From assembly GCA_029261215.1 (NCBI GenBank), contig JAJDBT010000084.1, positions 1-58,606 on the forward strand: 58,606 nt of DNA, read 5' to 3'. Made by a program: the position numbers and the translations under genes. The notes below the pieces were generated by a model. It was given only the letters and a program-made list of their open reading frames with translations, made no database searches and was not told the DNA's origin. Source of the stretch: Nitrospirota bacterium (GTDB taxonomy: Bacteria > Nitrospirota > Nitrospiria > SBBL01 > JAADHI01). Below are positions 8,261 through 33,460 of the stretch, piece by piece. Position 1 is the stretch's first letter, and each line of letters begins with the position of its first letter.

Positions 8261-8304
8261 GTCTCTTCCTTTCATCCATCTTCTCCCGGATGAAAGGAAG
8301 AGAC
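8261..8304. terminator. Perfect 17-bp hairpin between convergent genes
   Basis: Two perfectly complementary 17-base arms (8261-8277 and 8288-8304) flank a 10-base loop. It lies between the 3' ends of the convergent lipoprotein and dehydrogenase genes, the expected place for a terminator. Neither side has a T-run, so it may act with Rho or as an mRNA 3'-end protecting structure. Confidence 0.6.
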
Positions 8305-20996: not shown

Positions 20997-21449
20997 TTAA
21001 AACATCCCGTTGGCATTTGCACGCTTTTCGGGAATGTCTTGAATCACGTCCCAATGCTCGACGATTTTTCCTTTTTCGAGCCTAAAAATATCCACAATCG
21101 CGCGGCCGCGTGCACCCGGCTCCGGAACAGCGTGAACATGCAAAATCACAAAATCACCATCTGCAAAGACACGTTTGATTTCGCTGTGCGACTGGGGCGC
21201 TTTGTCCCGCAAAAAAGCAAGAAAATGTTTCAAGCCTTCCGGGCCGTCGGCGGCCATCGGGTTGTGCTGAATATAGTGCGGCCCCATATACTTTGAAGCC
21301 GCCTCAAAATCTTTTTCATTAATCGCCTTTTCATAAAAAGCGACGACATTCTTTTTATTGATCTCTTCCTGTTGTAAATCAGTGGCATCAACCGGGATGG
21401 CATTCAACGACAACCACAGGGTGATTAAAAAAAGTGCGCGTTTTTTCAT
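20997..21449 (-). CDS. SnoaL-like / NTF2-fold secreted protein
   Basis: A 150-residue protein: signal peptide (residues 1-22, ending VDA), then a SnoaL/NTF2-like fold with the recognisable run NVVAFYEKAINEKDFEAASKYMGPHYIQHNPMAADGPEGLKHFLAFLRDKAPQSHSEIKRVFADGDFVILHVHAVPEPGARGRAIVDIFRLEKGKIVEHWDVIQDIPE. Relatives bind or isomerise small hydrophobic molecules. Its ATG overlaps the stop of the sigma-54 activator gene (ATGA), so it is the last gene of the 20997-31852 cluster. Export suggests that it meets the pump's substrates in the periplasm (inference). Confidence 0.82.
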   Translation of the reverse strand: MKKRALFLITLWLSLNAIPVDATDLQQEEINKKNVVAFYEKAINEKDFEAASKYMGPHYIQHNPMAADGPEGLKHFLAFLRDKAPQSHSEIKRVFADGDFVILHVHAVPEPGARGRAIVDIFRLEKGKIVEHWDVIQDIPEKRANANGMF

Positions 21450-23479
21450 ACAACTCCTTTTGGGTCCAATTTTTCAATTCCGAGTTTTTTCATGCGATAT
21501 TGAAGGGTCGCGCGATGTACACCCAAGCGTTTTGCGGCCCCGACCGGCCCAGAGACCACCCAGTTACATTGATTCAAAACATTCAAAATATGCGCACGTT
21601 CAACCTCATCAAGATGCTCAGGAGGACTTGAAGACGATGAGGGAGCAGGCCGGACAAGCGGGGGGTTGGCTTCAATTTCTTCTACGACCAGCTCCGGGCC
21701 TTGTGTCAAAATCACCGCGCGTTCAATCAAGTGATTCAATTCACGAATATTTCCCGGCCAGTGATAGGAACACAAGGCGTCCATCGTTCTTGGATTGACC
21801 TGCTGGATCGCCTTTCTGTGACGGGCCGCATGGCGCTCAAGAAAGTAGTGGATGAGCTGAGGAATATCCTCCTGTCGTTCACGAAGCGGCGGGATTGTAA
21901 GCGGTAAAACCTTCAATCGATAAAAAAGGTCCGCGCGAAAAGCACCCGACTTGACCGCTGCTTCCAGATTGACATTAGTCGCGGCCAAAATTCGCACATC
22001 CACCTTTATCGTTTCCATGCCGCCCAGACGTTCAAATTCCTGTGACTCAATCGCACGAAGCAGTTTGGACTGCAAGGTCAGGGGCAGTTCGCCCACTTCA
22101 TCCAGAAAAAGCGTGCCATCGTTGGCCAGTTCAAACCGGCCAATCCGCCGTGCCGTGGCGTGCGTAAATGCGCCTTTTTCATGACCGAAAAGTTCCGACT
22201 CAATCAGGTTTTCGGGAAGCGTCGCACAATTGACGCGAATGAACGCTTTGTCCCGGCGGGGAGACGCTTCGTAAAGGGTTTGAGACACAAGTTCTTTGCC
22301 TGTTCCGGTTTCCCCCATGATGAGGACTGTGGAGTCGGTCGGTGCAATCTGTGTAATCGTGCCCATCATTTTCAAAAAGGCAGGGCTTTCCCCGACCATT
22401 TTTTTTCGATGATCCGCGTCTTTCACGGCTTCGCGAAGGTAGCGGTTTTCCCTTTCGATTTGATTTTTCAGGTTTTGAATTTCAGCAAACGCCAAAATAT
22501 TGCTGATCGCCTGAGACAAGTGATGCCCAAGATATTCACAAAGCGTCATATCACGATCTGAAAAAGCATTCCGGCGGCGGCTGCCGATCAGAAAAAAACC
22601 AAAGGCTTTGTCTCTGTTGTAAAGGGGAGTCACCAGACTTGAAAGCATGCCGATAGACGCAAGGTACGGAATTTCCGGATATTCACAATGATTGTGCCCT
22701 GTCAGAAAAAGCGGCTGTGCTGTTTCGAGCGCTTTCGAAAAAGGCAAGCGGCTAAACTGCGCCAGGTCAGGTAAAAACTGATCAACGGAAATAGATTTCA
22801 GACTAAAATCCTCCGCCCGGCCTTCCATTTGAATCAGAGCGCTTCCGTCGTTGGGAATCACTTTCTGGATCACATCTTTGATGCTGGACAGCAAGGTTTC
22901 AAGGGTCACCGTCCCCACAACCGCGCGTTCATCAATCGCCATCAGGGCATCCCGTTCTTCAAGCGCCAAAACAGCCTGAAAACTTGGGGCAATCTGAAGA
23001 CCCAGTTTTTCCATAAACAAACGATCTGCTTCACTCAAACCGCCCTGTTGATGACGGCCGACAAACATCACGCCAATCGTCCTGTTTGTCTCTCTTTTGC
23101 CTTCAAGGGAAGGCAAAACCAGGGGGGCGACGATAGCGGAAGACGCCTTGTGCCACTTGCCGACAATCCGCCCCTCTGTCCACTTGGATGTCACGATATT
23201 TTCAGAAAACACCGCTTGTTGCCTTGTCGCTGCGGCGTGTTTCATTGAGCCTGAAGCGGAGAGCTGACTGATTTCATAACCGGGCGTGCCGACTTCAAGA
23301 TGTTCGGGCGAGATACAACTCAAGGTTTCCGAGCACGCGCTGTACATGTAGAGTCCCGCCACATCAAACTTGAGATAACGCCGCAACTCTCGTATTAACA
23401 CGTTTGCAAATTCCCGTGAGCCTTTGCAAACCACCAAGGCATTAAACATCTTCAGCAAAAGGGCTTCTTCTTGATTCAT
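21446..23479 (-). CDS. Sigma-54-dependent activator, FhlA-like (GAF + AAA+ + Fis HTH)
   Basis: A 677-residue enhancer-binding protein. The first half (about 1-330) holds GAF-type sensory domains with no membrane segment. The AAA+ domain has Walker A GETGTGKE (about 389-396), the sigma-54 contact loop GAFTHA (about 436-441) in place of GAFTGA, and DEVGE (about 461). A Fis-type helix-turn-helix closes the protein (VGAAKRLGVHRATLQYRMKKLGI). The AAA+ region resembles FhlA closely. The frame opens at a TTG (23557), but the ATG at 23479 is the likelier start; the extra residues look unlike a GAF domain. It should oligomerise, bind palindromic enhancers and open a sigma-54 promoter. Candidate targets are the palindromes and -24/-12 site upstream of the DoxX gene in the same cluster. 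Confidence 0.9.
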   Translation of the reverse strand: MNQEEALLLKMFNALVVCKGSREFANVLIRELRRYLKFDVAGLYMYSACSETLSCISPEHLEVGTPGYEISQLSASGSMKHAAATRQQAVFSENIVTSKWTEGRIVGKWHKASSAIVAPLVLPSLEGKRETNRTIGVMFVGRHQQGGLSEADRLFMEKLGLQIAPSFQAVLALEERDALMAIDERAVVGTVTLETLLSSIKDVIQKVIPNDGSALIQMEGRAEDFSLKSISVDQFLPDLAQFSRLPFSKALETAQPLFLTGHNHCEYPEIPYLASIGMLSSLVTPLYNRDKAFGFFLIGSRRRNAFSDRDMTLCEYLGHHLSQAISNILAFAEIQNLKNQIERENRYLREAVKDADHRKKMVGESPAFLKMMGTITQIAPTDSTVLIMGETGTGKELVSQTLYEASPRRDKAFIRVNCATLPENLIESELFGHEKGAFTHATARRIGRFELANDGTLFLDEVGELPLTLQSKLLRAIESQEFERLGGMETIKVDVRILAATNVNLEAAVKSGAFRADLFYRLKVLPLTIPPLRERQEDIPQLIHYFLERHAARHRKAIQQVNPRTMDALCSYHWPGNIRELNHLIERAVILTQGPELVVEEIEANPPLVRPAPSSSSSPPEHLDEVERAHILNVLNQCNWVVSGPVGAAKRLGVHRATLQYRMKKLGIEKLDPKGVV

Positions 23480-23668: not shown

Positions 23669-24556
23669 CTAACCTTTTATCGCGGGGGCCAGGATGTCCC
23701 GTGCAAACTCGGCAAAGGTTGTCGGAGTCGTGTTTTCGCCTGATCGCGCCTGCGCGGGTTTCAGCCAGCCACGGTCGATACTCTCAAGCAGCTCAATCAG
23801 CTGTTTACTATAATCTTCACCCAGCCCCATCCCGGTAAGCGCCTCAAAAGCCTGCTCCGCTGTGACTTGAATATGTTGTACTTCGCGGCCAATGACTTGT
23901 GAGATCGTCTTCGCCGCTTCGTCAAAACTGACATCTGCGGCCCCTTGTAACTCCAGAACACGTTTCCCTGTCCATGACCTGTCACAGAGCACCGCCGCCG
24001 CTGTTTCAGCGATATCCTCTGTCGCAATCATCGGGGTGCGGGCCGAACCCGACACCGGCAAATAAATGGCATTTCCTGCCTGTATGCTTCCCACAGCGGC
24101 CAGAAGATTCTCCATAAAATAGGCAGGGCGCAAACAGAACAAATCCACATCCGACTGCCCAAAAGTCCATTCCGCATCATGCAGCCCAAGGATCGGCCCT
24201 GTTTTTTCTTTAAGATGCGCGCCAAGGGAAGACAAAAGCACTACGCGTGAAACCTTGTTGCTCCCGACCGCACAGGCCGCATGCTCGGTCATGTGGTTAT
24301 AATAGGCCCGTACATTTTTAGCGGCGATATCGGGCGGAATCAGAAAAAACAAGGTATCGACCCCTTCCAGTGCACGCCGTAAATAAACCCCGTCCTTCAG
24401 ATCGCCTTCGATAACCGTCGCCCCAAACCGTTGTTCCTCTTCCAGCTTACGGGCATCCCTCGCGAGCAGGATCAGTTCCACGCCTTCCTTGCCTTGAAGC
24501 GTTTTCACCAGTTTTCTGCCGATATTTCCCGTCGGTCCTGTAATCGCTATTTTCAT
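23669..24556 (-). CDS. NmrA-type atypical SDR / NAD(P)H-binding reductase
   Basis: A 295-residue Rossmann protein: the N-terminal TGPTGNIGRKLVKTL is the GxxGxxG nucleotide loop of atypical (NmrA/YtfG-like) SDRs. ARDARKLEEEQRFGATVIEGDLKD and LFFLIPPDI follow the NmrA pattern. There is no YxxxK. Relatives include quinone reductases, azoreductases and redox-sensing proteins. A strong RBS (AAGGAGGAAA) precedes it. It lies in the minus-strand pump cluster, 87 bases after the outer-membrane channel gene, so reduction of an electrophile or quinone is plausible. Confidence 0.82.
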   Translation of the reverse strand: MKIAITGPTGNIGRKLVKTLQGKEGVELILLARDARKLEEEQRFGATVIEGDLKDGVYLRRALEGVDTLFFLIPPDIAAKNVRAYYNHMTEHAACAVGSNKVSRVVLLSSLGAHLKEKTGPILGLHDAEWTFGQSDVDLFCLRPAYFMENLLAAVGSIQAGNAIYLPVSGSARTPMIATEDIAETAAAVLCDRSWTGKRVLELQGAADVSFDEAAKTISQVIGREVQHIQVTAEQAFEALTGMGLGEDYSKQLIELLESIDRGWLKPAQARSGENTTPTTFAEFARDILAPAIKG

Positions 24557-24643: not shown

Positions 24644-26104
24644 TCAGATAAAGGCATCCACCCCCCCACCCAGGGCCTTATACAGTCGGATCAAATTTGA
24701 GGTCACTTCAGCCTCACTTGCCGCCAGCTGATCCTGAAGCGATAATAAAGACCGCTGCGAGTCGAGCACGGTCTGGAAGGCGACGAGGCCCGATCGGTAA
24801 CGGTCCATAGCCAGGTTCACCGCCCGTCCCGCCGCCTCGGAGGCCTTGACCAGCGCGTCCCGCCGGAGTTGCTCCTCTCCGTAGGCGATGAGGGCGTTTT
24901 CGACCTCTTGAAGCGCGGAGAGCACGGCGGCTTCATAGGTAATCAGAGCCTGTTCCTGAAGCGCACTTTGAACGGCGATGTTTCGGCGGATCGCGCCCGC
25001 ATTAAAAATCGGCCAGTTTAAAGCCGGGCCGAGTAAAAAAGCGCGGTTATCCGATTGAAACAAACTGCCGGATGAAAAAGACTCCAGTCCAATAGAGCCA
25101 AGCAGTGTGAAACGCGGATAAAGGTCCGCCGTCGCCACACCCACCCGGGCGGTCTGTGCCGCCAGCGCACGCTCCACAGCCCGCACATCGGGCCGCCGCC
25201 TCAGCGTTTCCGCCGGAATCCCCAGCACGATCTGAATCGGCGACACCGGAATGGGTTTCGAGGCCGATAGCTCCTGGCCTAATTGACCCGGCGATTCTCC
25301 AATGAGAACCGACAATCGGTTTTTTGCCTGCGCAAGACCGCTCCGAAAAGCAGGAATTTGAGCACTCGTCTGGTGCAAGTTAAAGTCGGCCTGCTCGACA
25401 TCAAGCCCGGTGGTTAGGCCCGATTCAAAGCGGGCGCGGGCAATTTCAAGCGTCTCTGTCTGCGCGGCGCGGTTGGCCTCCGCGATGGACAGACGCGTTT
25501 GAAAAGAACGGATCTCCACATAATTCAAGGCCACTTCTGCGGTCAGGCTCACCATGACCGCGTGAAAATTTTCGATCTGTTCTTCGATACCGGCATCGGC
25601 CGCTTCCACAGACCTTCGAATGCCGCCAAACAAATCCAGCTCCCAAGCGGAATCAAAACCCACCGAAAAAAAATCGCTTTCCTTGCCCGTCCCTGTAGAT
25701 GGACTGCTTCGCCTTAACTGGACCGCGCCATTTGCGTCAAGCGTCGGAAACTGATTCGCCCGGACAATCCCCCGGCGGGCGCGGGCTTCGCGTACTCTCG
25801 CTTCGGCCTGTTTAAGATCCAGGTTTCCCCGAACCGCTCGCCCAATCAGGCCCGTAAGCAAAGGATCGTTCAAAGTGGACCACCATTGGGCCAGGGCTTG
25901 CGGATCGCCCCCGCCTTCGGAACTTTCATCCACGCCTGCAATCCATTGCGCAGGCTTTGAGGTTTCCGGCTGAACATAGTCCGGTCCGACCGTCATACAA
26001 GCAGAGAGGGAGAATACGACGCAAAGGCCAAACATCCATTTTACGCCAAGCCGTCCGACTCGAAGCACGCTTTCCCTTGATTTCTCTTTTATGCTTTGTC
26101 TCAT
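24644..26104 (-). CDS. Outer-membrane efflux channel (OprM/NodT family)
   Basis: A 486-residue TolC-like lipoprotein: the lipobox is in [15 protein letters not shown], the classic NodT-family start. Two repeats of the alpha-barrel domain follow: [31 protein letters not shown] in the first and [38 protein letters not shown] in the second. It forms the trimeric exit duct of the pump. Its ATG overlaps the stop of the RND gene (ATGA at 26101-26104). Confidence 0.92.
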
Positions 26105-29100
26105 GGCTTGCTCTCTCCTTTCACCTCAAAATCAAGCGGAAGGGACTGGGCGATGGGGGCCCCTTTCAACTTCTCTCGTATGTTTTGGAACATCACGTAG
26201 AGGGACGGAATTAAAAAGATACCGACAGACGTGGCGATCAACATCCCTGAAAAAACAGTGGTGCCGATAGCCCGGCGGCTGTTTGCGCCCGCGCCGGTCG
26301 CAATCACAAGCGGGACGACACCGAGAATGAAAGAAAAGGCCGTCATGAGCACGGCCCGAAAGCGCTGTTTCGCGCCATTCATTGCGGCCTGATGAATTGC
26401 GACACCAGCTTCCCGTTCCGTCTTGGCAAACTCGACGATCAAAATCGCATTTTTACTCGCCAAACCGATCAGGAGCACCAGGCCGACCTGGGTATAAATG
26501 TTGTTGTCGATGCCCGCAACCCACAAACCCGCCAGCGCGCCAAAAATGGCGACACTGATCGAGACAATCACCGACATCGGAATCGTCCAGCTTTCATATT
26601 GTCCCACCAAAAAAAGATAGGCAAAGAGCAGGGCCAGCGCAAAAATAATGGGCGCTTCTCCGCCAATCTTTTGCTCCTGATAGGACAGGCTCGACCAGGC
26701 ATAGCCATAGCCTTCGGGAAGCACCTTAGCCGCGAGCCGTGCCATCGCGGCCATGCCTTCGCCCGAACTGAAACCAGGCGCGGCCTCGCCGTTGATTTGC
26801 GCCGCTGAAAACTGGTTGTAGCGGTTCATCTGCTGAGGGCCCAATATGGTAGAAGTTGATACAAGGGTACTCAAGGGCACCATATTTCCGTCTGTACTGC
26901 GGACATATAACTCCTGAATATCCGAATCGCTGCTCCGATAATTCGCATCGGCCTGAATTTTGACCTGGTAGACCCGGTCGAACAGATTGAAGTCGTTGAC
27001 GTAGCGGGACCCGAGCTGGGCCTGCATCGTTGAAAATATTTCTCCGACCGGAACCTTCATCGACTCGGCCTTAGTCCGGTCCAGATCGACAAAGCGTTGA
27101 GGGACTTCAGCGGAAAACGTGCTGAAGGCCGATGCGATCTCCGGGTTCTGATTCGCGGCCACAACCAGGGACCGCATGACCGAACTTAATTCCTGGGGCG
27201 TTTGCCCTCTCAAGGCCTGTAAACGAAAATCGAAGCCTCCGGTGGTCCCTAAACCGCGAATGGGCGGAAGAGGAAACGCGGCGATATTGGCCGAGGGAAT
27301 GGCGGCCATCGCGCCTCGGATGCGACCCAATATCGGCCCGAGTTGGCGTTCCGGTTGCGCGCGCTCGTCCCAGGGGTCGAGTACCACAACCCCCAGCCCC
27401 ACATTTTCAGCCGAGCCGCTGATGATGCTGAACCCGCTGATCGCGACCACATCCGACACCCCTTCAAACTCTTTGACCGTTTCCTCGATCCGGTTCATGA
27501 CTTCCTGGGTGCGCGGAAGTGTGGCGGCATCCGGGAGCTGCACGTTCACAAAAATCACCCCCTGGTCTTCATTGGGCAAAAAACTGGTCGGGAGCGATTT
27601 AAACAAAAACCCCGCGCCGACGATAATCAATACAAAAAGAAGCCCGGTCACAACCAGACGCCGCGCCAGCCAGCCAGCGGCCGCAAGATACGCATTGCGG
27701 GAGGCATCCAGCGTGCGGCCGAACCAGGCCAGCGGGCCGCGCCGGATCGATTGAGGCGGTCGCAGCAAGACCGCGCACAAGGCAGGACTCAGGGTGAGGG
27801 CATTGACCGTCGAGAGGACGACCGCCGCCGAGATCGACACGGCGAATTGTTTGTAAAGCTGCCCCGTAATGCCGGGAAGAAAACCCACCGGCACAAAGAT
27901 CGCCAGCAAGACCAGGGTTGTGGCGATGACCGGACCCGTGACTTGTTGCATGGCCTTCATCGTCGCGGGCGCGGCATCGAGTCCCTCCTCCTCCATGATG
28001 CGCTGAACGTTTTCGACCACGACAATGGCGTCATCCACAACCACCCCGATGGCCAGAATCAAACCGAAGAGCGTGATGGTGTTCGCCGAAAGGCCTAGGG
28101 CGATGAGGATGCCGAACGCCCCAAGCAGGGAAACCGGAATGGTGACGGAAGGAATCAGGGTCGCCCTCCAATCCTGCAAAAAAAGATAGGTGACGACGAC
28201 CACCAACAAAAAAGTGATGAAGAGCGTCACGATCATCTCCCGAATGCCCGAACGCACAAACTTGGTGGTGTCGTAAGCAATGTGGTATTCGAGGTCATTG
28301 GGGAATTGTTTAGATAAATGGAGCAGTTCCGCAGCCACGGCTTCCGCGGTATCCAGCGCGTTGGCTTCCGGCGATTGAAAAATGCCCACGGGAATCGACG
28401 CAGAACCGTTGAATTTTGAACTGCCCGCGTAGGATTGGGCCCCCAATTCCACGCGAGCAATGTCCGCAAGCCGTACAACAGCGCCCTGGTTGTTCGTCCG
28501 TACGATAATTTCTTCGAATTCGGAAACCGTCTTCAAGCGCCCTTTCGCGCGCAGGACAAACTGGGACTGCTGACCTTCTACTGCCGGGGCGGTTCCGATG
28601 GCCCCCATCGTGGCCTGAATGTTTTGGCCTTCGATTGCGGCCGCAACATCGCCCGAGGTCAGCCCCAAGGCCGCCATACGCTCCGGGTCCATCCAGATCC
28701 GCATGCTGTAGTCCTGCGGGGTAAAAATATTCACCGTGCTGACACCCTTGATCCGGGAGAGGGCGTCGTTCACCGTCATGCTCACGTAGTTGCTGATAAA
28801 CAGTTGGTCATGACTTCCAGCGGGAGAAAAGAACTGAACAACCATCAACATGTTCGAAGACTGTTTCCGCACGCTTACGCCCTGGCGCACGACCTCGGCC
28901 GGAAGCCGGGAAGTGGCCTGCTGAACACGGTTTTGCACACTGACTTGCGCAAGATCCGGATCAGTCCCGACTTCGAAGGTCACACTCAGGCTGTAACTGC
29001 CATTATCGGCGCTGGTCGAGGACATGTAGAGCATGTTGTCCACGCCGTTGACTTCAGCCTCGATGGGCGCGCCCACGCTCTGGGCGACGACTTCAGCGCT

Positions 29101-29259
29101 TGCGCCAATATAATTTGTCGTGACCCGGACTTCCGGCGGCGTGATTTCAGGGTATTGCGCCACGGGAATGTTCAGCATGGCCAAAGCGCCGGCCAGGGTA
29201 ATGACAAGCGAAATGACAATGGCGAGGCGAGGCCTTTCAATAAAAACCTTCGAGATCAT
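26101..29259 (-). CDS. RND multidrug efflux transporter, HAE1 family (AcrB-like)
   Basis: A 1,052-residue inner-membrane pump. The ATG at 29259 gives the canonical start [39 protein letters not shown]; the open frame extends 38 codons upstream without a plausible sequence. Visible family features: the proton-relay TM4 segment [18 protein letters not shown] with the DD pair, [45 protein letters not shown], and TM10-11 ([44 protein letters not shown]). It expels drugs and hydrophobic compounds together with the adaptor and outer channel encoded on both sides. Start and stop both overlap the neighbouring genes by four bases. Confidence 0.95.
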
Positions 29260-30431
29260 TTGCCGCCTCCTTGTCCGGCCACGATAGGGCGAACGATTTG
29301 ACCGGGCCGCGCTTTTTGGATGCCCTGGACAATAACACTTTCTCCCGCCTGAAGCCCTTCTTCCACGGCCCATCCGGTTCCGGCGCTGGCTCCAGTGCGA
29401 ATCCGGCGTTGCAGGACGGTATTGCTGGCATCAACGACAAAAACAAAACGGCCTTCACGGTCTTCCATAATCGCCGCCTGGGGGACAATCGGCATGCGCT
29501 TCGCTTCGTTTCGCCGGACCACCACCTTCACAAACTGACCCGGCAGCAGCAAGGTGTCCGGGTTCGGGAAAAGCGTCCGAATCGCCACTGTTCCTGTTCC
29601 GCTATCAACTTGGTTATCCACAAAGTCGATCTTTCCGGTATGCGCATACATCACACCATTGGACATCTCAATTTCCGGCACAAAAGACGCATTCAGGGCT
29701 TCAACATTTTGCCCCTTGCTTTCCAGCCGGACATTAAAAACACGGTCTTCACTCACCGAATACACCACCCGGATCGGATGGAGCTGAACAAGACGCGCCA
29801 AGACGCCGGAAGCAGGCCCAAGCAGATTGCCCACGGTGAGGGCCGACTTCCCGATGCGGCCCGCAATGGGGGCACGAATGTGCGTATAACCGAGATTCAA
29901 CCTGGCCTGAAGCCGTCTGGCTTCAGCCTCCATCAGGCTCGCCTTCGCTTGCAACTCCGCACTGGCGGCCGCCTCCAGATCCGATTCTGCAACAGCGCCC
30001 TTTCGGGCAGATTGAAGTCGTTTTAGAAATTGACGGGCATTGGCCAGTGCGGCTTCGGCCTTTGCAATTTCGGCTTCGGCCACCTGAAGCGCAGCTTTAT
30101 AAGGGGCTTGCTCAATCACATACAGCAGATCTCCCTTTTGGACATCAGCCCCTTCCTTAAAACGAATTTCTTCGAGCACACCTTCCACACGTGCCCGAAG
30201 ATCAACCGACTGAACAGCCTCCACCCGGCCATTGCGTGACAAGGGCGGATTGACGTCCTGCTCGGTGATCACGGCGATCGAAACCCCAGGCGGCTCGCCT
30301 TGCGGCCCACCGGGCTGTGCCGATGCCAAAGGAAGAGAAAACAGGCCAGCCAACAAAACGCTGAGGACGACAAGCAAGCTTCGAAGATCAACACGGCCTG
30401 GGTTGGTCATATTTCTAAGGGTTATTTTCAT
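29256..30431 (-). CDS. RND periplasmic adaptor (membrane fusion protein)
   Basis: A 391-residue AcrA/MexA-type protein. The N-terminal signal segment (about 20-42) ends in LASAQ. There is a split lipoyl domain ([42 protein letters not shown] and [34 protein letters not shown]) around an alpha-hairpin (about 100-165). The beta-barrel and membrane-proximal domains end in [24 protein letters not shown]. It links the RND pump to the outer-membrane channel. The stop overlaps the RND start. Confidence 0.93.
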
Positions 30432-30464: not shown

Positions 30465-31361
30465 TTATTCGTGTCCTTCGTAAGCATGCGGCGGACGCCA
30501 GGGAAAAGACCCCATGTGGCCATCCAACATGATTCGCCACACATTCAAGTGCAGCCACTGATCGTACATGGCCCAGTCTTTATATTTGGGGAGCTTGACG
30601 GCGGCCGGAACCTCCGTGAAAGGCGTTCCTTTTTTGAATTCCGCAAAGATGGCCGCTTGTAGGTCGTTAATAAAGGCAATGGTTTCCGTCACATCTTTTT
30701 TGCTCCCCGTCGGTTTGCCGCTGGCGTTGTGGGAATAGACGGCCAGATCAAAATCCATCATCTCGATCTGATTTAAAGAACGTGTCCATTCCTTGATATT
30801 AAAGTCCGGGGCGATTGCAAAGAGCACCCGCTTCGGCGCAACCAGATCCGCCACGTAAATCATCTTTTCCTTGGGCAATCGAAAGACCGTCATGCCCAGA
30901 CCATGATTCATCCCCATGTAGTGCAATTCGACTGTCCTGCCGCCAAGGACGATGTCCTTGCGCAGGCCCGCCCAACTCTCGTCCGGCAGGGCGAGGTCGT
31001 CGTGCGGGTTGGCCTTCATCCATTCGTAGGCTTCGACATGGGCCACAATCGTCGCGCCTGCGTCACGAAACACTTGGCCGCCATTGGCATGGTCCCAGTG
31101 GTTATGACTAATGAGAAGATAGCGAATGGGCTTGTCTGTCACGCTTCGGATGGCCTTGAGCATGCCTTTGGAATGCGCTGAGCTGACCGGTTCGATCACG
31201 ATCACTCCCTCCTTTGTGACCATGAACATGGAAAGGTACATGCCCGCGTCGTAGACATAGACCTCATCTGCGATCTTCACCGGTTTAATCTCCTTACTTT
31301 CAGCAAACGCTGTCAAAGGAATCAGTAAGACCCACATAAAAACCACCAGTGTTTTCTTCAT
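30465..31361 (-). CDS. Exported metallo-beta-lactamase-fold hydrolase
   Basis: A 298-residue protein with a signal peptide (1-20, ending AFA). The metal motif HNHWDH sits at 86-91, with later ligands in GMNHGLGMTVF, VADLVAP and VYSHNASG; this is the full MBL-fold set for a periplasmic metallo-hydrolase. The substrate is unknown. It lacks the B1 lactamase motif order, and its long C-terminal part resembles relatives annotated as glyoxalase II-like or quinoprotein-relay hydrolases. It lies 33 bases upstream of the adaptor gene in the same direction, so it is probably part of the detoxification cluster. Confidence 0.85.
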   Translation of the reverse strand: MKKTLVVFMWVLLIPLTAFAESKEIKPVKIADEVYVYDAGMYLSMFMVTKEGVIVIEPVSSAHSKGMLKAIRSVTDKPIRYLLISHNHWDHANGGQVFRDAGATIVAHVEAYEWMKANPHDDLALPDESWAGLRKDIVLGGRTVELHYMGMNHGLGMTVFRLPKEKMIYVADLVAPKRVLFAIAPDFNIKEWTRSLNQIEMMDFDLAVYSHNASGKPTGSKKDVTETIAFINDLQAAIFAEFKKGTPFTEVPAAVKLPKYKDWAMYDQWLHLNVWRIMLDGHMGSFPWRPPHAYEGHE

Positions 31362-31402: not shown

Positions 31403-31852
31403 TTAAGCGGGCAGACGCTTGGCGACTTCCCGATCCACTGACCATCGCCCCGCCCCTGTGATCATCAGCGCGGCCGAGATGCCAATCACCAGCAGATGGT
31501 ATTCGTAGCCCTGGCCCTCTTGGTTGCCGAACCAATTCATGAAAAAACCGTGTTGCCAGTGGGCGATGCTGATGGCCCCCAACATAATGACGGCCATGCT
31601 CGCCGCCGTGAAGCGTGTGAGAAAACCGGCAATGAGGCCAATCGCCCCGAAGGACTCCCCGATAATCACAAGAAAGGCAATCACAGCCGGTATACCCATG
31701 CTCCCTGTAAAAGCCCCCATGGTGCCGGAAAAACCGAAGCCCCCGAACCAGCCGAAGAGCTTCTGCGCACCGTGGGGAAACATCACAATCCCCAGTGTCA
31801 GCCGCAAAATAAAGGCTGCGGTCGAATTATCCGTTGCGAAAAATTTTTTCAT
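31403..31852 (-). CDS. DoxX family membrane protein
   Basis: A 149-residue protein with four membrane segments: [69 protein letters not shown] and [18 protein letters not shown]; these are DoxX-family motifs. ATG 31852 with AGGAG just before it is the true start; the longer open frame would run through the sigma-54 promoter at 31912-31927. DoxX proteins join membrane oxidoreductase complexes and often rise under oxidative or thiol stress. It is the first gene of the minus-strand cluster down to 20997. Confidence 0.88.
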
Positions 31853-31911
31853 TCTCCTATCCTCCATTAAACTAAAGTAATAACAAGCGCATCTCTTGGT
31901 GACTGACATAG

Positions 31912-31927
31912 AGCAACAACTGTTCCC
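31912..31927 (-). promoter_or_regulatory. Sigma-54 (-24/-12) promoter for the efflux/detoxification cluster
   Basis: The minus strand reads GGGAAC-N5-TTGCT. The GG and GC dinucleotides are separated by exactly ten bases, as sigma-54 requires; the consensus is TGGCAC-N5-TTGCW, with two mismatches. The start point would be near 31901, about 50 bases before the DoxX ATG. An FhlA-like activator is encoded in the same cluster, and large palindromes lie 100-170 bases upstream of the start point, the usual enhancer position. Confidence 0.65.
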
Positions 31928-32002
31928 GTTTTCCACCAAACACAATAAAAAACCATAAGTCCTTGTTTTTCATTATTAATTTATAGAATTGAATCGCGCT
32001 GA

Positions 32003-32072
32003 GCTGAATCTTAAGCATTGGCCAATGCTTAAGATTCAGCACTTCTGCTGAAACTTCAGCAGAAGTGCTGAA
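32003..32072. repeat. Two overlapping 38-bp palindromes (putative enhancer sites)
   Basis: 32003-32040 is a perfect 38-base palindrome. 32035-32072 is a second 38-base palindrome, perfect except for two central bases. They share six bases, and their centres are 32 bases apart, about three helical turns. The hexamer TTCAGC or its complement GCTGAA occurs at 32003, 32035, 32047, 32055 and 32067. A smaller inverted repeat (TCGAAG-N8-CTTCGA) follows at 32076-32095. The position, upstream of a -24/-12 promoter, suggests tandem binding sites for the sigma-54 activator. Confidence 0.7.
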
Positions 32073-32174
32073 CGCTCGAAGGGCAACCGCTTCGATCAGG
32101 ACACTCAAAAAACAGGTATTCTCCAGAAAAGTAGTACGGGCTACATTATTTCGATATAAAGATCGAATACCGTG

Positions 32175-32210
32175 TCCCCATGCGAACTTTCTTTGAGTCT
32201 TGCATGGGGA
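32175..32210 (+). promoter_or_regulatory. Possible structured 5' leader of the phosphate-transporter gene
   Basis: A nine-base stem, TCCCCATGC (32175-32183) with GCATGGGGA (32202-32210), is followed by CCTC/GAGG pairing (about 32224-32239) and by CTTGGT/ACCAAG pairing just before the RBS (about 32276-32310). Three stems in a row before the start at 32318 look like a structured leader. I could not match it to a known riboswitch. Confidence 0.3.
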
Positions 32211-32317: not shown

Positions 32318-33460
32318 ATGTCTGTCTTCGTCTTATTTTTTTTAACGCTTTTTCTTGCTTATGCAAATGGAGCAAATGATAATTTCAAGGGCGTCGCGAC
32401 ACTCTACGGCAGTCGCACACTTTCTTATCGCACTGCGATTCAAATGGCGACACTCGCGACATTTGCGGGATCTATCTCATCTATCTTTCTGGCTCAGGGA
32501 TTGGTCGCAGGATTTTCCGGTAAGGGACTTATCCCGGATCAAGTCGTCGGTGCTCCGATTTTTCTCATGTCTGTGGGTTTCGGTGCCGCTGCAACCGTAC
32601 TCCTGGCCACCCGTCTGGGTTTTCCGATTTCAACCACACACAGTTTAGTGGGCGGCTTATTGGGTGCAGGGATCATGGCGGTTGGATGGGATGTTCATTT
32701 TCATCGTTTAGGGGAAACCTTCTTGATCCCTTTACTCATGAGTCCCTTGATCGCCTTTACGCTTGCTGTCATAAGCTATCGTTTTTTTAGCTATGTAAAA
32801 TCAGCAGGTGGATTCAGTAAGGAAAGCTGTATCTGTGTGGGAGAGCAAAAAAACTTTGTGCCTCTCCGTGTATTAAAGCACTCAAAAAATGACCACCTGG
32901 ATCAAAATATCGCGATGGATAATCCCCCTTATCTTGACATTGCCTTTACTGTGGCCGATACCAATGAATGCATGGATCTCTACACAAACAGGGTTTGGGG
33001 CATTTCAGTGCAAAAGCTGCTTGACCTTGCACATGTCTTCAGTGCGGCAATGGTTTCATTTGCAAGGGGCTTGAACGACACCCCGAAGATTGCAGGCCTG
33101 CTCGTCGCGTCTCAGGCGCTGGATATCCAATGGGGTATGACGGCCATCGCGAGCGGGATGGCCGTGGGCGGCGTATTCAATGCGCGAAAGGTCGCCGAAA
33201 CGATCAGCCATAACATCACCGTTTTAACGCAGGGACAAGGATTTTCGGCCAACTTGATTACCGGATTTTTAGTCATCGTTGCCAGCAAGTTTGGCGTGCC
33301 GGTATCAACCACACACGTCTCTGTCGGGGCCATTATGGGAATCGGCATGGTGAGCGGAAATCGCAATGCCAATATGATTGTTCAAATTATTCTTTCCTGG
33401 CTGGTGACCCTGCCCATCGCAATGGGCTTGAGCGCTGCCCTGTATTTTATCCTTTCTTAA
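32318..33460 (+). CDS. PiT-family inorganic phosphate (or related anion) transporter
   Basis: A 380-residue membrane protein of the PHO-4 superfamily with two homologous halves. The signatures are GANDNFKGVATLYGS (residues 18-32) and FARGLNDTPKIAGLLV (GLND at about 251-254), each followed by a STTHS/STTHV loop (FPISTTHSLVGGLLGAG and VPVSTTHVSVGAIMGIG). The first signature departs from the usual GANDVANA, so a different anion (for example sulfate, as in CysP) is conceivable. A soluble loop of about 60 residues divides the halves. It is divergent from the DoxX cluster. Confidence 0.88.
   Translation: MSVFVLFFLTLFLAYANGANDNFKGVATLYGSRTLSYRTAIQMATLATFAGSISSIFLAQGLVAGFSGKGLIPDQVVGAPIFLMSVGFGAAATVLLATRLGFPISTTHSLVGGLLGAGIMAVGWDVHFHRLGETFLIPLLMSPLIAFTLAVISYRFFSYVKSAGGFSKESCICVGEQKNFVPLRVLKHSKNDHLDQNIAMDNPPYLDIAFTVADTNECMDLYTNRVWGISVQKLLDLAHVFSAAMVSFARGLNDTPKIAGLLVASQALDIQWGMTAIASGMAVGGVFNARKVAETISHNITVLTQGQGFSANLITGFLVIVASKFGVPVSTTHVSVGAIMGIGMVSGNRNANMIVQIILSWLVTLPIAMGLSAALYFILS

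Follow-up and report, generated by a model that had tools for sequence, protein, structure and literature searches.

Predicted sigma-54 activator sites in a tandem dyad array upstream of a DoxX operon in Nitrospirota

Upstream activator sequences (UAS) of the NifA/FhlA type have the form TGT-N10-ACA. They accompany a -24/-12 promoter and are placed upstream of the start by some 100 bp or more (PMC2820453, PMC6615313). Many of the UAS motifs found in a survey of Clostridiales are FhlA- and NifA-like TGT/ACA repeats 10-12 bp apart (PMC6615313). The GAF-domain activator NorR needs three enhancer sites upstream of norV for DNA-dependent assembly and ATPase activity (PMC2941729), and NtrC uses two enhancer sites and recruits a third dimer (PMC8899819).

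The array described here lies in a contig of a Nitrospirota bacterium (JAJDBT010000084.1; the whole stretch of 58,606 nucleotides is called the window). It has counterparts in two genomes, a Nitrospiria bacterium MAG (G005:C38, CALZIJ010000038.1) and a Nitrospirota bacterium MAG (G006:C1, JAJDBW010000001.1). Its 16-bp dyads resemble NifA/FhlA-type sites in their length, in short outer triplets 10 bp apart, in their location roughly 100 bp or more upstream and in the accompanying -24/-12 promoter; however, the outer triplets are TGC-N10-GCA, and inner GAA/TTC are kept as well. We know of no described regulator with the motif TGCTKAA-N2-TTMAGCA. The NorR target operon is linked to the NorR activator gene, and the same linkage is seen here together with a GAF-domain activator and three sites that could support hexamer assembly, although NorR sites have a different sequence, the two relatives of the array have only two full dyads, and the linked activator has two GAF stretches and GAFTHA instead of GAFTGA. 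NtrC enhancers are also paired dyads upstream of a sigma-54 promoter, whereas the activator linked to the array has GAF domains and no receiver domain, and the motif differs. We consider it highly probable that the array represents UAS (enhancers) for the linked activator of an autoregulated sigma-54 DoxX operon. It appears to be a new sigma-54 enhancer array, restricted to its lineage and paired with a predicted cognate activator; the kind of system is known and the motif is new.

A sequence-only reading of the window had described overlapping 38-bp palindromes forming a tandem hexamer array. Direct inspection of the sequence confirmed that the palindrome at 32003-32040 (TTGGCCAA) is perfect (38/38 bases) and that the one at 32035-32072 matches at 36/38 positions, a central AC separating its perfect arms of 18 bases each. 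Six bases are common to both palindromes, and TTCAGC/GCTGAA does occur five times (32003, 32035, 32047, 32055 and 32067). The palindromes are the longest short-loop inverted repeats of the whole window, and the predicted fold of the segment lies 9 SD below that of shuffled sequences (z = -9). The proposed 20-bp distance between hexamers of the same orientation holds for TTCAGC (32035 to 32055) and for one GCTGAA pair (32047 to 32067), but not for the other (32003 to 32047, 44 bp). A third inverted repeat proposed at 32076-32095 exists (6-bp arms, 8-nt loop), but at chance level: because the window contains 254 repeats with 6-bp arms and loops of 0-12 nt, 19 of which share the 8-nt loop, we give it no weight. 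It shows no evident conservation in G005 or G006. Elsewhere in the window, 8261-8304 holds an inverted repeat whose 17-bp arms are perfect and enclose a 10-nt loop.

The repeats are thus present as described, but they resolve into a smaller element: the working unit is probably a 16-bp dyad, TGCTKAA-N2-TTMAGCA, rather than the hexamer or the 38-mer. The window has three such dyads with centres at 32009.5, 32033.5 and 32053.5, i.e. 24 and 20 bp apart, and the 38-bp palindromes arise because dyads and spacers mirror one another. The elements of the intergenic region are as follows (strand is given where it applies).

31913..31927, minus strand: candidate sigma-54 -24/-12 promoter, GGGAACAGTTGTTGC; GG-N10-GC conserved in G005 (AGGAATATTTATTGC) and G006 (TGGAACACTTTATGC)
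32002..32017: dyad 1, proximal, extra putative UAS, AGCTGAA-TC-TTAAGCA (AGCTGAATCTTAAGCA); centre 96 bp from the -12 GC; window only
32026..32041: dyad 2, putative UAS, TGCTTAA-GA-TTCAGCA (TGCTTAAGATTCAGCA); centre 120 bp from the -12 GC; conserved (G005 120, G006 121)
32046..32061: dyad 3, distal putative UAS, TGCTGAA-AC-TTCAGCA (TGCTGAAACTTCAGCA); centre 140 bp from the -12 GC; conserved (G005 140, G006 141)
32066..32072: flanking half-site TGCTGAA; partial match in G005, exact spacing missing in G006
32003..32040: perfect 38-bp palindrome, made of mirrored dyads 1 and 2 plus spacer
32035..32072: 36/38 palindrome with dyad 3 at its centre; spacers CTTC/GAAG mirrored (G005 counterpart CTGC/GCAG)

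The array is located between two divergent genes: a DoxX gene that starts at 31852 on the minus strand, and a gene of the phosphate-transporter family whose start on the plus strand is at 32318. The DoxX gene heads a cluster on the minus strand.

31403..31852, minus strand: DoxX-family membrane protein, first operon gene (PF07681, 1.4e-20)
30465..31361, minus strand: MBL-fold hydrolase (PF00753)
29256..30431, minus strand: RND periplasmic adaptor (TIGR01730, above cut-off)
26101..29262, minus strand: RND permease (NF000282, above cut-off)
24644..26104, minus strand: RND outer-membrane factor (TIGR01845, above cut-off)
23669..24556, minus strand: NmrA-like NAD(P)H-binding protein (PF05368)
21446..23479, minus strand: sigma-54 activator GAF-GAF-AAA+-HTH_8, presumed dyad ligand (PF00158, 1.5e-68; two GAF stretches; PF02954)
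20997..21449, minus strand: SnoaL-like protein, operon end (PF07366)

The linked genes point to detoxification or export, which is a guess from gene families. Transcription of the DoxX operon is expected to start near 31901, and the genome encodes RpoN (sigma-54) and HU/IHF-family proteins. Between the array and the phosphate-transporter gene, at 32175-32210, there is a hairpin (TCCCCATGC...GCATGGGGA) with no Rfam identification.

The three dyads at 96, 120 and 140 bp from the -12 GC are laid out in tandem within the range typical of sigma-54 UAS (about -80 to -200). The -24/-12 element appears convincing through its conservation and not through its score: GG-N10-GC is conserved in the orthologous operons of all three genomes, while each match is weak alone, as a one-strand match equally good occurs in 12.9% of simulated 300-bp regions. 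The two nearest orthologues of the activator, both full-length, are encoded in two other members of the bacterial family (70% identity in G005, 65% in G006), in operons with DoxX and MBL at the head plus NmrA, and in G005 also the RND genes. Upstream of DoxX, both operons carry two dyads exactly 20 bp apart. In simulations of 100,000 regions per relative with the same dinucleotide make-up, no region contained a dyad pair as good at 20 bp, either for G005 or for G006; when any spacing of 18-26 bp was allowed, such pairs turned up in a proportion of 2e-5 of the G006 regions and in none of the G005 regions. The intergenic alignment between the window and G005 shows 75-85% identity over the array, about 70% over the promoter and 15-45% in the flanks. 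The comparative search suggested by the sequence-only reading spoke for its proposal: the orthologous operons with the activator each have a dyad pair whose distance to a conserved -24/-12 element is the same, and the DoxX loci inspected outside such operons lack the array. The pairing of the sites with the predicted cognate activator was seen in three genomes only. The idea of cooperative enhancer sites upstream of a -24/-12 promoter, serving the activator encoded in the cluster, is supported by conserved dyads, their spacing, their distance from the promoter and this co-occurrence.

Identity of the operon to that of G005 (L068) is uneven: 95% for the RND permease, 93% for DoxX, 91% for the adaptor and 89% for MBL, with 70% for the outer-membrane factor, NmrA and the activator. 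Because it is so uneven, it suggests recombination or partial transfer.

A relaxed tandem-dyad pattern searched against 257 Gb of bacterial and archaeal genomes (84,980 species) gave two matches, exactly the G005 and G006 operons; the pattern was derived from these sequences, so that such searches show rarity elsewhere and not independent discovery. Among 267 genomes of the class scanned with up to two mismatches, the exact pattern was present only in the three operons, with two-mismatch matches in two other genomes and one match for a reversed control. The arrangement is thus common to three genomes, all of one family. We found no second copy in the same genome, only lone dyad-like matches inside ORFs, which were rejected as sites for that reason. 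In Nitrospira-type genomes, dyad-like matches some 700 bp beyond homologues of the activator were also discarded, being coding where the ORFs were read (MLIVQQ), and a text search for TGCTGAA/TTCAGCA in a published Desulfovibrio sigma-54 regulome gave no match.

The linked activator (21446-23479) matches PF00158 (AAA+), GAF and PF02954 (Fis-type HTH), all over cut-off, and falls below the cut-offs of the FhlA (NF011958, 379 vs 830 bits) and NorR (NF003451, 362 vs 476 bits) equivalogues. Its recognition helix, HRATLQYR, is the same in all three operon activators, whereas more distant homologues, whose neighbourhoods lack the array, have K-R-S/T-TLQHR. The sigma-54 contact loop reads GAFTHA, not GAFTGA, in all three (21446-23479, L068:2365-4377 and L069:2263-4260), and homologues in the class have GAFTGA, GAFTNA, GAFTDA or GAFTHA. 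When the glycine of this loop was replaced in NorR, activity without signal was reported for D, N, Q, S, C and M only, and the other changes, histidine among them, were reported as non-functional (PMC2941729). This is a point against the proposed role; the activator either tolerates histidine or contacts sigma-54 differently. In the proposed mechanism, dimers of the activator would bind the 16-bp dyads and assemble side by side into an active ring, and looping of the AT-rich DNA between array and promoter would bring it to RNA polymerase-sigma-54 at 31913-31927. This would switch on the DoxX-MBL-RND-NmrA-activator-SnoaL genes, the activator's own gene included, with the cluster from DoxX to SnoaL transcribed as one operon in response to an inducing signal. 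For an uncharacterised sigma-54 activator of the GAF type, from the poorly studied Nitrospirota, the array would then yield predictions of the recognition motif, the promoter and the regulon.

The dyads might instead be operators of an unlinked dimeric regulator that controls the DoxX operon, the divergent phosphate-transporter gene, or both. Operators of such size and symmetry are common, the array sits between divergent genes, and other DoxX genes of the class have a different palindrome, GTTCTANNTAGAAC, over a sigma-70-like promoter. We nevertheless regard this as improbable: the dyads co-occur with the linked activator, and an enhancer is favoured over a repressor operator because they lie 96-140 bp upstream of the promoter at a fixed distance. 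The transporter gene is missing in G005 and G006, where the array is kept, so the array goes with the DoxX operon, and a role as a phosphate-transporter element was rejected on the same grounds; no such palindromes were seen upstream of phosphate-transporter homologues.

The palindromes might also act in folded form, as an RNA structure, a terminator or an extruded cruciform, which would agree with the very stable predicted fold and with the covariation of spacers from CTTC/GAAG in the window to CTGC/GCAG in G005. This reading is nonetheless very improbable, given that the array yields no terminator call and no Rfam match, that it is not in the DoxX transcript because it lies upstream of the inferred start of that operon, and that the long stem is lost in G006 (11/24 arm positions match) while two dyads persist. 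Perfect palindromes within a draft, multi-contig assembly could also be a sign of misassembly or of a mobile or repetitive element of a generic type (REP, MITE). We give this hardly any credence: REP and MITE elements exist in many copies, whereas the palindromes are not spread over the genome and the array is single-copy; for dyads 2 and 3 it is contradicted by two other assemblies, which have homologous arrays at the corresponding position.

Returning to activator sites as the preferred explanation, protein binding does not require the surplus symmetry of the array, and template switching is its simplest account. Dyad 1 mirrors dyad 2 exactly, down to the spacer (TTGG/CCAA), and occurs in the window but not in G005 or G006. 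In the window, dyad 3 lies between mirrored spacers (CTTC/GAAG); in G005 the mirroring is kept through a paired change (CTGC/GCAG), and in G006 it is missing. Template switching is known to create and maintain perfect inverted repeats (PMC8794818). The perfect 38-bp symmetry probably arose as a by-product of mutation, and the third dyad with the perfect palindromes is most readily explained by a recent inverted duplication of the template-switch type during replication, which added a third site in this lineage. Selection on the spacers may be an alternative source of the mirrored symmetry. A bolder proposal, which we find possible but doubtful, is that template-switch mutation actively builds and homogenises the enhancer, copying dyad 2 and its spacer into an inverted third site and keeping the flanking spacers mirrored; if so, an enhancer gains sites in one mutational step. 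The locus thus gives a tidy example of how template switching may multiply enhancer sites.

DoxX genes appear to be under different regulators in relatives. The array was absent upstream of all parsed DoxX loci outside the activator operons (29 loci examined, G005 and G006 included; two unparsable). Many DoxX genes of the class carry GTTCTANNTAGAAC instead (L115, L118, L119, L121, L124, L125, L127, L128, L130, L131, L133 and L135-L140), several visibly within a sigma-70-like promoter (TTGACTT...TATACT), which suggests that genes of one kind are served by different regulators. A third kind of control is seen in two members of the same genus (L117, L122), where DoxX directly follows the end of an apparent MarR-type regulator gene. 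In several genomes (for example, G099:C1, G104:C54 and G071:C1), other DoxX genes are only a few kb away from genes for sigma-54 activators of the same family, so the link between DoxX and such activators may be broader within the class.
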